Assembly: GCA_028278425.1 (NCBI GenBank)
Contig: JANQEJ010000054.1
Coordinates: 1-64,000, forward strand
Reading direction: 5' to 3'
Length of the DNA: 64,000 nucleotides
Source: Planctomycetota bacterium
GTDB lineage: Bacteria > Planctomycetota > UBA1135 > GCA-002686595
Notes under the pieces: generated by a model
Databases searched by the model: none
Told to the model about the DNA's origin: nothing
What the model saw: the letters and a program-made list of their open reading frames with translations, nothing else
Position numbers and translations under genes: made by a program
Shown here: in pieces, positions 8,241 to 39,066 of the stretch
Numbering within the stretch: the first letter of the stretch is position 1
Layout: each line of letters begins with the position of its first letter

Positions 8241-9679
8241 GCGGGCTCTCCCAGGGTCTTCCAGAGGTGAAAGGTAGCGAGGCTGCGGTGCGGCGCGAAG
8301 GGCTTCATCAGCGCGACCGTCTCCTCCGCGCCCGGCCGGTGATCGAGGCCGTGGAAGCGTTCCAGCGCGCGGACCAGGCCGGCGTCGCCGACCGGCACGC
8401 AGTCGGCGAAGCCGCACGCGCGCATGAGCACGTAGTGCGCCGACCACGGACCGAGGCCGCGCACGGCGAGCAACGCCGCTTCCGCGCTCGTGGCGGACCC
8501 ATTCGCGACGGCGTCCAGGTCGAGCTCGCCCTCCGCGATCGTCCGCGACGTGTCGATGAGGTACTCCGCCTTGCGGCGGGAGTATTGCAGCTTCGTCAGG
8601 TCCGCGTAGTCGAGCTTGGCGACGTCGCGCGGCGTCGGGTGCGCGCGAAGACCGTCACCCGCGCGAGCGCCCGCGAGATCGATCAGGCGGTTGCGGCACG
8701 CGAAGGCGAAGGCGAGGTTGACCTGCTGCCCGACGATCGCCCACACGAGCCCCTCGTACGGGTTGGGCGTCTGCGGGATGCGCAGCCCGGCGCGGCCGCG
8801 GATCAGCCGTCGCACCCCCGGCTCGGAGCGCGCGCGCTTCTCGAAGGCGGCCGGTTCGACCGTCAGGCCGAGGAGTCGCAACAGCGTCGCGTGCGCCGCG
8901 CCCATCTCCGCCGGCCCCAGCGCGCGGCGCGCCTCGACCACGCAGCGCAAATCGCCGCCGCGGAGCTCGACGCGCAGGAGCGCGGGCTTGCCGCCGAGCC
9001 GCACCGCGCGCAGCAGGCGGCGGCCGTCTACGCGCTCGGTGCGCCCGTCGGGGTCGCGGCCGATCGCGCGCAGGACGTGGTCCACCGGGAAGCCGCGCGG
9101 CAGGCGCAGCACGAAGGTCCCGGCCGCGCCCATCCGCCGGTAGTCGCCCGGCGACATGCCGGTCTTGCGGCGGAAGTTCGAGTGGAAGGCCGACAGGCTC
9201 TCGAAGCCGACGTCGAGCGCGATCGAAAGCGCGCGGCGGCGGGTGGTGAGGAGCTCGGTGCACGCGCGCGCGACCCGCGCGTCGCAGAGGAGCTCGCGCG
9301 GCGTCGCGTGATAGTGCTCGCGGAAGAGCTCCGCCAGCTTGGTGGGGCCGACGCCCGCCGCGCGCGGCAGGCTCGCCGCGTTGGGGAACTCGCCCGGGTT
9401 GGCGCGCACGCGCGCCACGAGCCGTTCCAGCTCCTCGCGCTCGGGGTCGCGTCCGGCGTGCACCTGGTCCGGCTTGCAGCGCTTGCAGGGGCGCAGCCCG
9501 AAACGCCGCGCCTCGTCGACCGCGTCGAAGAAGCGCACGTTCTCCGCCCGCGGCTTGCGCGCCGGGCAGGTGGGGACGCAGTAGATGCCCGTGGTCACGA
9601 CGCCGACGACGAAGCGCGTCTCGTAGACCGGGTCGCGCGCGCGGAAGCGCTCGAGCATCACCTCGCGGGTCAACCTCAC
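8237..9679 (-). CDS. alkA: Ada-type regulator fused to AlkA 3-methyladenine DNA glycosylase
   Basis: This 480-residue fusion has three parts. Residues 1-75 are the Ada zinc domain, with Cys34, Cys38, Cys65 and Cys68 (TTGIYCVPTCPARKP and LRPCKRCKPD); in Ada one of these is methylated from phosphotriesters. Residues ~80-185 are an AraC-type double helix-turn-helix (ALDVGFESLSAFHSNFRRKTGMSPGDYRR). Residues ~190-480 are AlkA, with the HhH-GPD motif VRGLGPWSAHYVLMRA and the catalytic Asp in PVGDAGL (Asp432). It would act as a methylation sensor and activator and also remove alkylated purines. The GTG at 9679 is one of several possible nearby starts (TTG, GTG and ATG lie within 8 codons). Its stop overlaps ogt; senA lies 55 bp upstream. 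Confidence 0.93.
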   Translation of the reverse strand: MRLTREVMLERFRARDPVYETRFVVGVVTTGIYCVPTCPARKPRAENVRFFDAVDEARRFGLRPCKRCKPDQVHAGRDPEREELERLVARVRANPGEFPNAASLPRAAGVGPTKLAELFREHYHATPRELLCDARVARACTELLTTRRRALSIALDVGFESLSAFHSNFRRKTGMSPGDYRRMGAAGTFVLRLPRGFPVDHVLRAIGRDPDGRTERVDGRRLLRAVRLGGKPALLRVELRGGDLRCVVEARRALGPAEMGAAHATLLRLLGLTVEPAAFEKRARSEPGVRRLIRGRAGLRIPQTPNPYEGLVWAIVGQQVNLAFAFACRNRLIDLAGARAGDGLRAHPTPRDVAKLDYADLTKLQYSRRKAEYLIDTSRTIAEGELDLDAVANGSATSAEAALLAVRGLGPWSAHYVLMRACGFADCVPVGDAGLVRALERFHGLDHRPGAEETVALMKPFAPHRSLATFHLWKTLGEPA

Positions 9680-36103: not shown

Positions 36104-36603
36104 GCGGCGGCGCGGCGGACCATGAAGTCCTGCCAAGGCGAGGCGTGTCACCGTTCGGGCCTTTGCCGCGACCTGGACCTACGTCCATCGTCCTTCCGGC
36201 CAGCGCCGCCGCCATCACCCGCAAGAGACCGTGGTCCAGCGCGCCAACCGGTCTGCCGCTCTCCGCGCCGGCCCCTACGGCGTCCTCAGCCCCGCGGACC
36301 GCCTCGACCTCGCCGATTCGCAAGCTGGAGACGAGATGTTTATATACAGATCCGCATAAGTCCGGGTCCCGTCTTCCCGCGGAAGTCTGCATGTTCGCTT
36401 GTTCCAGGTGGTTACGTTTCCTCTCCGACACTGGAAGGCAGGGTTGCACAGGCGGGCTGGCTGCGTTCTTCTGTTTATCCGAGGTCCGTCGAAGACTCAT
36501 TAGGCGCGAAGAAAAGGTCGGAGGAGGGATGGTGTGCTAGCAGAAGCGACTCGATGGACTACTCGCAACTCTTGGCGGGCTGGTGTGTCGAGGGCATCTG
36601 AGT
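36104..36603. other. about 500 bp without a convincing gene, leading into the cassette array
   Basis: No intact gene is supported. A G/C-rich-third-position plus-strand frame ending near 36357 contains SPADRLDLADS and could be the tail of a broken gene. Close to its end is the most A+T-rich spot of the region (TTTATATACA, near 36340), with TTCGCA about 18 bp before TATATA, a weak sigma-70-like arrangement that could drive the array. The segment just before the first attC-like site ends in a short frame (DYSQLLAGWCVEGI) typical of a cassette-gene end. An integrase is not present. Confidence 0.35.
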
Positions 36604-36665
36604 GGCTAACAAACCTATGCGTCGGACGGCGCTTCGCGCCGCAGTTGATCGCCACCGCGCTAGCC
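36604..36665 (+). repeat. attC-like site 1 (62 bp)
   Basis: The left end is GGCTAAC, the right end GCTAGCC, and the central imperfect hairpin is GGACGGCGC-TTC-GCGCCGC. The layout and length match short integron attC sites such as the one behind aadA: outer R boxes, inner L boxes and a central TTCG-type loop. The left box matches RYYYAAC at 6 of 7 positions; the right box is degenerate. Confidence 0.7.
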
Positions 36666-36706
36666 AGACAGTCGGTGCAGCGACCTTACACAGAGGAGGC
36701 AGACGG

Positions 36707-37072
36707 ATGAGGCTTCAGCCTCTCGCGGTTGTCCTGCTGGCGGGCCTAGTCGGGTGCCACTCCGTCGGCCATAGCTTCAGGAGTGATACGGCGGCGCTGT
36801 CTCAGTTGGTTGTGGGAGAGACGACTCCGGACGATGCAGTCCGCATTCTCGAGGCCGAGCCCCACATTCGTCAGAACTTGCCGGACGGCACGCTTGCTTG
36901 GCACTGGCAGCACATCGCCTCTGGGGCGTACGTTGGTGTCACTGACAACCGCTACATCGTGCTGATCTTTAAGCGATCCGACGATGGCTCTTCCTGGCGA
37001 TTCCACAACGTCATGCTTGCACAGAACATCGATCTACCTCCAGATATGCCCTTTGGAGCAGTCGTTCGCTGA
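36707..37072 (+). CDS. cassette gene: small BamE/SmpA-like lipoprotein
   Basis: This 121-residue protein begins MRLQPLAVVLLAGLVGCHSV with a lipobox (LVGC). The mature part (LVVGETTPDDAVRILEAEPH followed by IRQNLPDGTLAWHWQH) resembles the BamE/SmpA lipoprotein fold. AGAGGAGG precedes the ATG. It lies between attC-like sites 1 and 2 in plus orientation, the expected place and direction for an integron cassette gene, and its composition is less G+C-rich than the core genes. The BamE link is by eye only. A frame upstream through attC-like site 1 to 36602 is not used. Confidence 0.7.
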   Translation: MRLQPLAVVLLAGLVGCHSVGHSFRSDTAALSQLVVGETTPDDAVRILEAEPHIRQNLPDGTLAWHWQHIASGAYVGVTDNRYIVLIFKRSDDGSSWRFHNVMLAQNIDLPPDMPFGAVVR

Positions 37073-37090
37073 TGGCGCTATCCGATGAAT

Positions 37091-37152
37091 GGCTAACAAG
37101 GCGATGCAGACGGACGGCCCTTCGGCCGCCGCTGATCGCCATCGGGTTGAAC
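37091..37152 (+). repeat. attC-like site 2 (62 bp)
   Basis: The left box is GGCTAAC, the right box GTTGAAC, a full match to GTTRRRY. The central hairpin is GGACGGCCC-TTC-GGCCGCC. The next gene's ATG lies 4 bp after the right box. Confidence 0.78.
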
Positions 37153-37156
37153 TGAC

Positions 37157-37429
37157 ATGACCACACGTACTGCTGTCGCTTGGTACCGGCGGGACCAATG
37201 GTCGCGGCTGCTGGAGCTGTCGGAGGATGCGGACGAGTTGGAGGCAACCTTCGATCAGTGGCTAGCCGCGGCGACGAAGAGGTTGTTGGAGATCGACCCG
37301 ACCGGCGATCGGGTGATTCAGCTCGACGTGGACGTAGAAGAACTCTGGCGGTGGTGTCAGGATCAGGGCCGGCCTCTCGATGGAAGAGCAAGGGCGGAAT
37401 TCGTAGCCCGGAAGGCACAAGCCAAGTGA
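37157..37429 (+). CDS. cassette gene: small hypothetical protein
   Basis: This 90-residue protein (MTTRTAVAWYRRDQWSRLLE, with VEELWRWCQDQGRPLDGRAR) starts 4 bp after the right box of attC-like site 2 and ends just before attC-like site 3. It is soluble and helical with an acidic N-terminal half and a basic tail. Gene placement, size and orientation fit an integron cassette. The family is not recognised. No Shine-Dalgarno sequence fits between the attC box and the ATG, as is common for cassette genes that borrow upstream translation signals. Confidence 0.7.
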   Translation: MTTRTAVAWYRRDQWSRLLELSEDADELEATFDQWLAAATKRLLEIDPTGDRVIQLDVDVEELWRWCQDQGRPLDGRARAEFVARKAQAK

Positions 37430-37433
37430 CGCT

Positions 37434-37495
37434 GTTCAGCCAGCCGATCGAACGGACGGCGCTTCCCGCTGCCGTTCATCGACGTAGCGTTAGAC
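37434..37495 (+). repeat. attC-like site 3 (62 bp)
   Basis: The right box GTTAGAC is a perfect GTTRRRY and directly abuts the ATG of the next gene. The left box GTTCAGC matches RYYYAAC at 6 of 7 positions. The central hairpin is GGACGGCGC-TTC-CCGCTGCC. The 62-bp length equals that of the other three sites. Confidence 0.75.
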
Positions 37496-38038
37496 ATGCA
37501 AGCCAGCGTCCCATCGACCGCTGAAGTGCTGGCCCTCCGGAAGCTGGGACGCAGTATCGATGCGAGGTGGGTTGATTGGGCAGTGCGCAAGCTCCTTGAG
37601 GGGCGTGACACTCCGTGTCTGCGGGTGCTCGCCGGGGAAGTCGGCCCCTTCAATCAGTTCGAAATGGCAGCTCTTGTCGATCGGACCTTCGAGGAACTCG
37701 GACTTCAGCAGTACCCGAGCCGGAAGGAAGCGGCCGTGGCCTATGCTTCGGTCCTCGCTGGACGTATTCTCAGTGGCGTTCTTCCCGCGGATGTCGCGCT
37801 CGCTGAACTAGCCCAGCTCTGCATCGAGCTCGACTACCTCAAGGATGTCCGGGATTTCTATCTGCTCCACTTCGCGCGTGAAGATCTTCAGGCAACTGGC
37901 ATGCAGTACTACTGGCCTGAAGGTGACCAGGAGAGCATCGATGACGTCATCCGCGAATACTGCAGGAAGTGGATCAGGGAACACTCGCTGGATGTCCAAC
38001 CCACCGATTCACCGGACGGCGCTTCTCGCCGCCGTTGA
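37496..38038 (+). CDS. cassette gene: hypothetical protein
   Basis: This 180-residue protein (MQASVPSTAEVLALRKLGRS and following) has a Trp-rich early helix, a central 'DYLKDVRDFYLLHFAREDLQ' helix and an acidic/aromatic C-terminal half (YYWPEGDQESIDDVIREYCR). The ATG immediately follows the right box of attC-like site 3, and the stop lies inside attC-like site 4, so the gene fills one cassette. Its base composition is lower in G+C than core genes. I do not recognise the family. Confidence 0.72.
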   Translation: MQASVPSTAEVLALRKLGRSIDARWVDWAVRKLLEGRDTPCLRVLAGEVGPFNQFEMAALVDRTFEELGLQQYPSRKEAAVAYASVLAGRILSGVLPADVALAELAQLCIELDYLKDVRDFYLLHFAREDLQATGMQYYWPEGDQESIDDVIREYCRKWIREHSLDVQPTDSPDGASRRR

Positions 38039-38055
38039 TCGCCACCGCGTTCGAA
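37994..38055 (+). repeat. attC-like site 4 (62 bp)
   Basis: The left box GTCCAAC is a perfect RYYYAAC; the right box GTTCGAA is degenerate. The central hairpin is GGACGGCGC-TTC-TCGCCGCC. It overlaps the 3' end of the preceding gene. Confidence 0.72.
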
Positions 38056-38067
38056 AGGCTGGAGGCG

Positions 38068-38166
38068 ATGACGACGCATGATCTTGTAGTAGGCACCTGG
38101 GAGATCACGGAGATGGACGCGTGGGAGAAGTCGACGCTCGATCTCGTGGAACCAGTGTCCGGCTGA
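38068..38166 (+). pseudogene. truncated start of a small cassette-type gene
   Basis: An ATG 12 bp after attC-like site 4 opens MTTHDLVVGTWEITEMDAWE and continues KSTLDLVEPVSG to a stop after 32 codons. The phrase G-T-W-x-I-T-E-M resembles the start of a small family in which the sequence goes on for about 60 or more further residues. Here it runs straight into the C-terminal half of an unrelated VOC-fold gene. I infer a recombination scar. Confidence 0.45.
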
Positions 38167-38390
38167 TGCTGGATGCCCCGGCCGAGACGCAGTCCGAGAA
38201 CTACGGTTCCATCATTTACTACAAGGTCCCGGATCTCGACGCGGCTTTCGAGACGCTCTCCGCCAGGAAGGTCGTCTTCGAGGCAAAGCCGCATCTCGTC
38301 GCGGAACTTCCCGACTACGAGCTATGGATGGCCTTCTTCCGGGATCCGGACGGAAACCTCATGGCGCTCATGAGCGAGGTTCGGCAGTAA
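38166..38390 (+). pseudogene. C-terminal half of a VOC (glyoxalase/bleomycin-resistance-like) protein
   Basis: This 74-codon frame (MLDAPAETQSENYGSIIYYK, VPDLDAAFETLSARKVVFEA, then LWMAFFRDPDGNLMALMSEV) encodes the second half of a VOC-fold protein, including the conserved Phe-x-Asp-Pro-Asp-Gly-Asn metal-side segment. Full proteins have about 120-130 residues, so the first ~50 are missing. The ATG overlaps the preceding stop (TGATG), and recognisable VOC sequence (GTSVRLML) continues a few codons upstream in frame, so the junction with the preceding fragment lies near 38140. Confidence 0.65.
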
Positions 38391-38515: not shown

Positions 38516-38713
38516 ATGAGAACGACCCTGAACATCGACGACGGCCTTCTCAAACAGGCGGCACGACTGACCGGGGTGAAGGAGAAGACTGCTCTCGTTC
38601 GCCGCGGGCTTGAAGCGTTGATCGCTCTGGAGAGTGCTCGCCGGTTGGCGGCCCTGGGGGGCACCGAGAAGAAGCTCAAGCCCGCTCGCCGGCGCCGCAC
38701 GAGCGCGGCATGA
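38516..38713 (+). CDS. vapB: VapB-type antitoxin
   Basis: This 65-residue protein (MRTTLNIDDGLLKQAARLTG) has the ribbon-helix-helix start of VapB antitoxins and a basic C-terminal tail that would wrap the toxin. It is followed by vapC with an ATGA overlap. The ATG at 38516 is preferred over an in-frame ATG at 38510 because the -10 element ends at 38508. The pair lies in the cassette-like region. Confidence 0.88.
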   Translation: MRTTLNIDDGLLKQAARLTGVKEKTALVRRGLEALIALESARRLAALGGTEKKLKPARRRRTSAA

Positions 38714-39066
38714 TCCTGGTCGATACGTCCGTCTGGATCGACCACCTGCGAAAGGGCGACCGCGAGCTTGCGGGGCTCTTGAACGAAGGCGTGGTGCTGT
38801 GCCATCCGTTCGTGATCGGCGAGTTGGCCTGCGGCAACCTGAAGAACCGGCGTGAGATTCTCTCTCTGCTGGCCGCCCTTCCCACGGCTCCGGTGGCGAC
38901 TCATGAAGAGGGGCTGCATCTGGTCGCCGATCGGAAGCTCGACGGCAAGGGGCTGGGCTGGATCGACGTTCATCTGCTCGCGTCCGCTCTCCTGTCGAAG
39001 TGCACGCTTTGGACGAAGGACAAGGCGCTTGCAGCCGTTGCGAGCTCACTCAAGGTCAACGCATGA
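38710..39066 (+). CDS. vapC: VapC-type PIN-domain toxin
   Basis: This 118-residue PIN-domain ribonuclease has the acidic residues expected for magnesium binding: Asp5 in MILVDTSVWIDHLRK, Glu in VIGELACG, Asp in GWIDVHLLASA, and an Asp in TLWTKDKAL. VapC toxins cleave tRNA or rRNA and are neutralised by VapB. The ATG overlaps the vapB stop. The length is usual. It looks intact and probably functional. Toxin-antitoxin pairs are often found in integron arrays, where they can stabilise the array. Confidence 0.92.
   Translation: MILVDTSVWIDHLRKGDRELAGLLNEGVVLCHPFVIGELACGNLKNRREILSLLAALPTAPVATHEEGLHLVADRKLDGKGLGWIDVHLLASALLSKCTLWTKDKALAAVASSLKVNA

Follow-up and report, generated by a model that had tools for sequence, protein, structure and literature searches.

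An attC cassette array headed by intI and attI relics in a planctomycete genome, very probably a decayed sedentary chromosomal integron

Background

Planctomycete integrase genes (intI) and planctomycete attC models are both already on record (PMC2426708 and PMC8352920, respectively). The same is true of CALINs, defined in IntegronFinder by the presence of at least two attC sites and the absence of a functional intI nearby (PMC9024848). Decay of the integrase gene is common, with pseudogenes making up roughly a third of intI genes by one estimate (PMC2426708) and 43–46% by another (PMC3108266). In the integrons of Treponema, intI is transcribed towards attI and is co-directional with the cassettes, and a remnant in T. 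phagedenis has lost intI and kept its attC sites (PMC3607928). Loss of intI with retention of the array is also known from Xanthomonas, where an inactivated intI accompanies a stable array and secondary CALINs occur elsewhere in the genome; the passages considered do not report attI at the secondary clusters, unlike the clusters of the genome described below (PMC12444791). Integrons in planctomycetes, CALINs and the decay of intI are thus all previously known.

The locus described here lies in a window of 64 kb, which is the whole stretch of DNA that was analysed. It shares with the intact sedentary chromosomal integrons of the Planctomycetota (Pla86 and Pla163) the sequence and structure of attC, the attI core and the arrangement of intI, attI and cassettes in one direction, but its intI is destroyed and its array is short and truncated. 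With four attC sites and no functional intI nearby it falls within the definition of a CALIN, yet it retains a recognisable intI pseudogene and an attI, which that definition does not demand. The Treponema cases belong to another phylum, whereas here remnants of both intI and attI are still visible.

The source genome (G000) is a 7.83-Mb assembly of 364 contigs, 89% complete and presumably a MAG, placed in the same family as Pla86 (G016, CP036296.1) and Pla163 (G029, CP036290.1). We take these two strains to be Engelhardtia mirabilis and Rohdeia mirabilis, whose taxonomy entries lead to Planctomycetia incertae sedis. The window is on contig C81, and its array has a GC content of 61%, against 69% for the window.

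Results

attC sites

The original prediction named four sites of 62 bp each, and these lie exactly where it placed them (Table 1), with the perfect right boxes at attC 2 and 3 and the perfect left box at attC 4 that it described. From attC 1 to attC 4, the left and right boxes read GGCTAAC/GCTAGCC, GGCTAAC/GTTGAAC, GTTCAGC/GTTAGAC and GTCCAAC/GTTCGAA, so that the end boxes of all four nearly match the consensus RYYYAAC / GTTRRRY. The hairpin core by itself (ACGGCSCTTC, one mismatch allowed) occurs at chance-level frequency in the window and is unremarkable in GC-rich DNA, so that the sites had to be tested at full length.

A covariance model, R3, was built from 24 attC sites adjoining intact IntI in relatives and contained no sequence from the source genome. 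This search, which had been proposed as a check, recovered all four sites with E-values from 1.7e-16 to 1e-12 and matched nothing else in the window, the following match having an E-value of only 0.12. A second model, R1, built on the four window sites alone, matched arrays adjoining intact IntI in genomes of the same family (Pla86, Pla163 and others), with E-values down to 5e-20. No extra attC sites were found at 33–42 kb with filters off, and Rfam gave no matches at its gathering thresholds. A loose pattern, AAC-N-CGGACGGC, was also tried genome-wide and dropped, since chance matches dominated.

The sites share a conserved bottom-strand hairpin, the L'' arm of which carries extrahelical bases. 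In an alignment of 36 sites, 88.9% of the cells are paired, although this alignment was fitted to the structure and is biased toward pairing; slid controls all pair at 25–37%. Two-sided, compensatory changes are seen at 16 of the 24 pairs, which answers the concern that a conserved fold might be lacking. A hand-made structure with bulges paired 85% of the cells in the true register and 24–41% when slid. Folding the bottom strand of individual sites gave a mixed outcome: site 2 took up the typical attC fold (Table 1), while sites 1 and 3 taken individually were no better than shuffles. We conclude that the four are true attC sites.

Table 1. Features of the window array and of the other attC clusters in the same genome
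Feature	Position	Strand	Evidence or remarks
intI pseudogene, C-terminal fragment	36159..36308	+	tblastn, local IntI HMM, IntI profile
attI-associated repeat-like element, possible accessory integrase-binding site	36344..36360	+	17.1 bits, attI A-block matrix
attI core relic TCCGAGGTCCGTCGAAG-actc-ATTAGGC (predicted)	36478..36505	+	22.0 bits, top site in 64-kb window
Cassette 1, no credible gene	36500..36659 (160 bp)	+	attI junction to attC1 right box
attC site 1	36604..36665	+	R3 46.5 bits, E 1e-12; R boxes pair completely, bottom strand
Cassette 2 gene, 121-aa predicted lipoprotein (lipobox LVGC)	36707..37072 (cassette 36660-37146)	+	ORF; no known family
attC site 2	37091..37152	+	R3 57.3 bits, E 1.7e-16; bottom-strand fold z -4.7, extrahelical bases
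Cassette 3 gene (ORF2), 90 aa, no family assigned	37157..37429 (cassette 37147-37489)	+	ORF
attC site 3	37434..37495	+	R3 49.7 bits, E 7.5e-14
Cassette 4 gene (ORF3), 180 aa, no family assigned	37496..38038 (cassette 37490-38049)	+	ORF
attC site 4	37994..38055	+	R3 53.2 bits, E 4.4e-15
Truncated fifth cassette	38050..38166	+	ribosome-binding site and start MTTHDLVVGTWEITEMDAWEKSTLDLVEPVSG, then junction
Second integron relic (L084)	G000:C14 10772-13291		three attC sites and attI leader
Third integron relic (L085)	G000:C220 9570-12495		four attC sites
Fourth integron relic (L086)	G000:C295 7974-9326		two attC sites, attI-like site at 9055

The head of the array

According to the original prediction there was no integrase in the window. 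This was wrong, since an intI pseudogene lies directly upstream of the array, on the strand of the cassettes. The intI of Xanthomonas, unlike that of the window locus, has the classical divergent orientation. With the IntI sequences of relatives as queries, tblastn placed the remnant at 36159-36272, where identity reached 63% in an alignment of 38 aa (E 7.6e-8). A local IntI HMM gave E 3.2e-10 in a regional six-frame search, and an IntI profile run against the whole genome gave E 1.6e-6 over profile positions 214-251. The frame reads AFAATWTYVHRPSGQRRRHHPQETVVQRANRSAALRAG and, after a deletion of ~48 residues, runs into the IntI C-terminus, GPYGVLSPADRLD (36264-36308). The intervening IntI segment (HTLRHSFATHLL..LLGH..Y) is deleted and all N-terminal sequence is absent; the remnant is only ~50 residues long. 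Among the parts lost are the HxLRHSFATH box and the catalytic tyrosine, and the product would therefore be dead. No intact IntI was found in the 7.8 Mb of assembled genome, in which TIGR02249 matched nothing above its cut-off; its strongest sub-cut-off matches come in two pieces with a gap at about positions 175-237, as in Xer-type recombinases. Since intI is present only as a pseudogene fragment, the locus is filed as a decayed integron and not as a functional one.

Twelve loci of relatives share a core 3' of their intact intI, roughly TAYGCAGGTCYGYCSAAT-N4-GTTRGGC, which ends at the first cassette junction. A matrix built on 12 IntI-adjacent attI sites from relatives located a predicted attI at the head of the window array, between the intI remnant and attC1 (Table 1). 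On 272 kb of control DNA (544,234 positions), no site reached 16 bits. The core appears to resemble the end of attI1 (..CGCCCTAAAACAAAGTTAGGC), which would fit a shared attI simple site.

Cassettes

The order of the array can be read directly from the sequence. Three co-directional ORFs alternate with attC sites 2–4, each gene being followed by its attC, and the predicted spacing holds, with ORF starts 4 bp past right box 2 (37157) and immediately past right box 3 (37496). The stop codon of the cassette 4 gene falls within attC4. Cassette 1 has an ATG with a ribosome-binding site at ~36530 and a stop three codons later. At the far end, the truncated fifth cassette joins a partial glyoxalase/VOC gene (38121-38390) that covers only profile positions 48-119 of 121. 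Just past this end (window 38516-39066) is a VapB/VapC toxin-antitoxin pair in a low-GC stretch with no recognisable attC, which may be a former cassette or other acquired DNA.

The three cassette proteins had no matches in Pfam, NCBIfam or PADLOC and nothing convincing in the PDB, where the matches of protein 1, to designed chains and GFP-fusion chains, look like an effect of composition. Among the 392 genomes of the phylum that were sampled, the source genome included, ORF2 occurs in 12 and ORF3 in four, and neither is found in any other sampled genome of the same family. The genes therefore do not look ancestral, which had been put forward as a possible objection, and such a sparse distribution is as expected for captured genes. 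The ORF3 protein also has a distant homologue on a Persicobacter plasmid. With R2, no attC was found near homologues of the cassette genes in other families, a weak test because their attC type may differ. Homologues of the 713-aa flank gene were present in 42 of 81 family genomes with no shared neighbours, so that no comparison with an empty site was possible.

Other clusters in the genome and in its relatives

Three further attC clusters were found in the source genome, on contigs C14, C220 and C295, and these are also integron relics. Two of their attI leaders are clear, and one is weaker but paralogous. The best attI-matrix sites of C14 (22.0 bits) and C295 (16.2 bits) lie just upstream of the first cassette, while the C220 core is weak (~11 bits) and its case is made by paralogy with the window leader, to which it is 70% identical over 130 nt (E 1.2e-6 genome-wide). 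As judged from sequence comparison, the homology of the leaders has a z of 16 both for the window and C220 and for C220 and C14; the C295 leader resembles the attI of Pla163 (z 6.5). The C295 array is also headed by a second, frameshifted intI remnant (9230-9326), reading HSFATHFLEDGQDIR and, in another frame, GPHAVRNPLDRP. The own-genome cores thus score 22, 22, 16 and ~11 bits, compared with 26–38 bits for IntI-adjacent attI sites, the latter having trained the matrix. These three additional relics suggest that the genome once had several integrons or duplicated integron heads. As to cargo, C14 encodes a protein of 280 aa matching the candidate defence family PDC-S31 and one of 244 aa with a sub-threshold AbiU2-like HEPN match, and C220 has one ORF matching DUF6236 and another encoding an HTH protein.

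In a survey of 61 genomes (our own and 60 relatives), 34 had attC sites and 15 had IntI above the cut-off. Where relatives have an intact integron, its intI, attI and attC sites follow one another in the order and direction seen at the window locus. A cluster was called attI-headed if a site of at least 16 bits was present on the right strand within 3 kb, and only clusters with at least 1 kb upstream were counted. By this measure 17 of 32 integrase-less clusters in relatives were attI-headed, some of them with intI remnants; the cluster heads were picked manually, and some may lie inside longer arrays, while others are hidden by contig breaks. Set against the absence of such sites in 272 kb of control DNA, this count argues that many integrase-less clusters in the clade are integrons minus intI and not off-site insertions. 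On the closed chromosome of Pla163, a single IntI lies at 1.11 Mb, and an array that is attI-headed but has no integrase stands apart from it at 0.80 Mb.

Some individual loci deserve mention. The Pla163 array (L176, CP036290.1, ~802.3-804 kb) has five attC sites and an attI of 26.4 bits, with the intact IntI 0.31 Mb away. Near-perfect attI cores of 37.1 and 35.9 bits were seen at L203 (G030:C50) and L207 (G048:C6), and the 3 kb upstream of either array head contains no IntI. Planctomycete-type attC sites were also seen in contigs binned to other phyla, in a cyanobacterial MAG (L116, 2286-2348) and a Kiritimatiellales MAG (L120, 5787-5849), through either cassette transfer or binning error.

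Discussion

The window locus, in which an intI pseudogene and an attI relic are followed by a cassette without an ORF, three cassettes with genes and a truncated fifth one, is very probably a decayed sedentary chromosomal integron. The integron-cassette arrangement first proposed for this planctomycete chromosome is supported by the R3 matches, the conserved structure and the non-ancestral look of the cassette genes. Judging from the anatomy, capture by IntI would have assembled five or more cassettes into an array. Loss of the N-terminal part of the integrase and of its catalytic C-terminal box would have followed, together with truncation of the array at its far end. The surviving cassette genes would now be fixed chromosomal genes, mobile only if IntI were supplied in trans. 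It is from these remains that we infer past activity, present immobility and the order of losses.

Supply in trans is also the basis of an alternative, in which an intact IntI encoded in the unassembled 11% of the genome still shuffles the cassettes of all four clusters; it overlaps with our reading, as the local head is decayed under both. The MAG is 89% complete, none of the three cassette ORFs or four attC structures is disrupted, and in both Pla163 and G009 an intact IntI coexists with separate attI-headed clusters that lack one. However, IntI is absent from the 7.8 Mb that was assembled, two clusters carry degraded intI remnants, and the genome's own attI cores tend to score under the IntI-adjacent ones, although it was on the latter that the matrix was trained. 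We therefore regard an array still served in trans as unlikely.

Far less probable is that the locus was never an integron and arose by off-site (attG) insertion through a distant IntI, as a classic CALIN formed by dispersal. The literature describes this route (see the discussion in PMC12444791), and small clusters are indeed scattered across several contigs. For the window locus it is largely refuted, given that the array is headed by remains of both intI and attI and that the leaders of three clusters are paralogous, while it is possible for clusters of relatives without an attI, such as L187 and L201. A GC-rich hairpin core alone is not rare in the window, which might suggest hairpins arisen by chance, or a family of REP/MITE-like repeats lying between ordinary genes. 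This can practically be dismissed, being refuted by the match of a full-length attC model from other genomes and contradicted by the R boxes, the shared orientation, the way the sites alternate with unrelated ORFs, and the presence of intI and attI remains at the head.

With the window locus read as a decayed integron, a wider proposal can be made tentatively, although we would sooner doubt it than rely on it: the integrons of this family may be multi-platform systems, in which one IntI, or none where it is dead, serves dispersed loci that have their own attI and cassettes. If so, many integrase-less clusters would be satellite integron heads, not random insertions, and would be recognisable by the conserved attI core. 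In a limited literature search we found no report of an attI family of the window type or of attI-headed integrase-less clusters in the Planctomycetota.

The origin of attC clusters that lack an integrase is debated, the two candidates being the loss of intI and the insertion of cassettes off-site. At the window locus enough of the array head survives to be read. The two origins can be told apart by the conserved attI core, a criterion applicable to genomes at large. The locus is also a record of chromosomal integrons, and of how they decay, in the Pla86/Pla163 lineage, which has been little studied.
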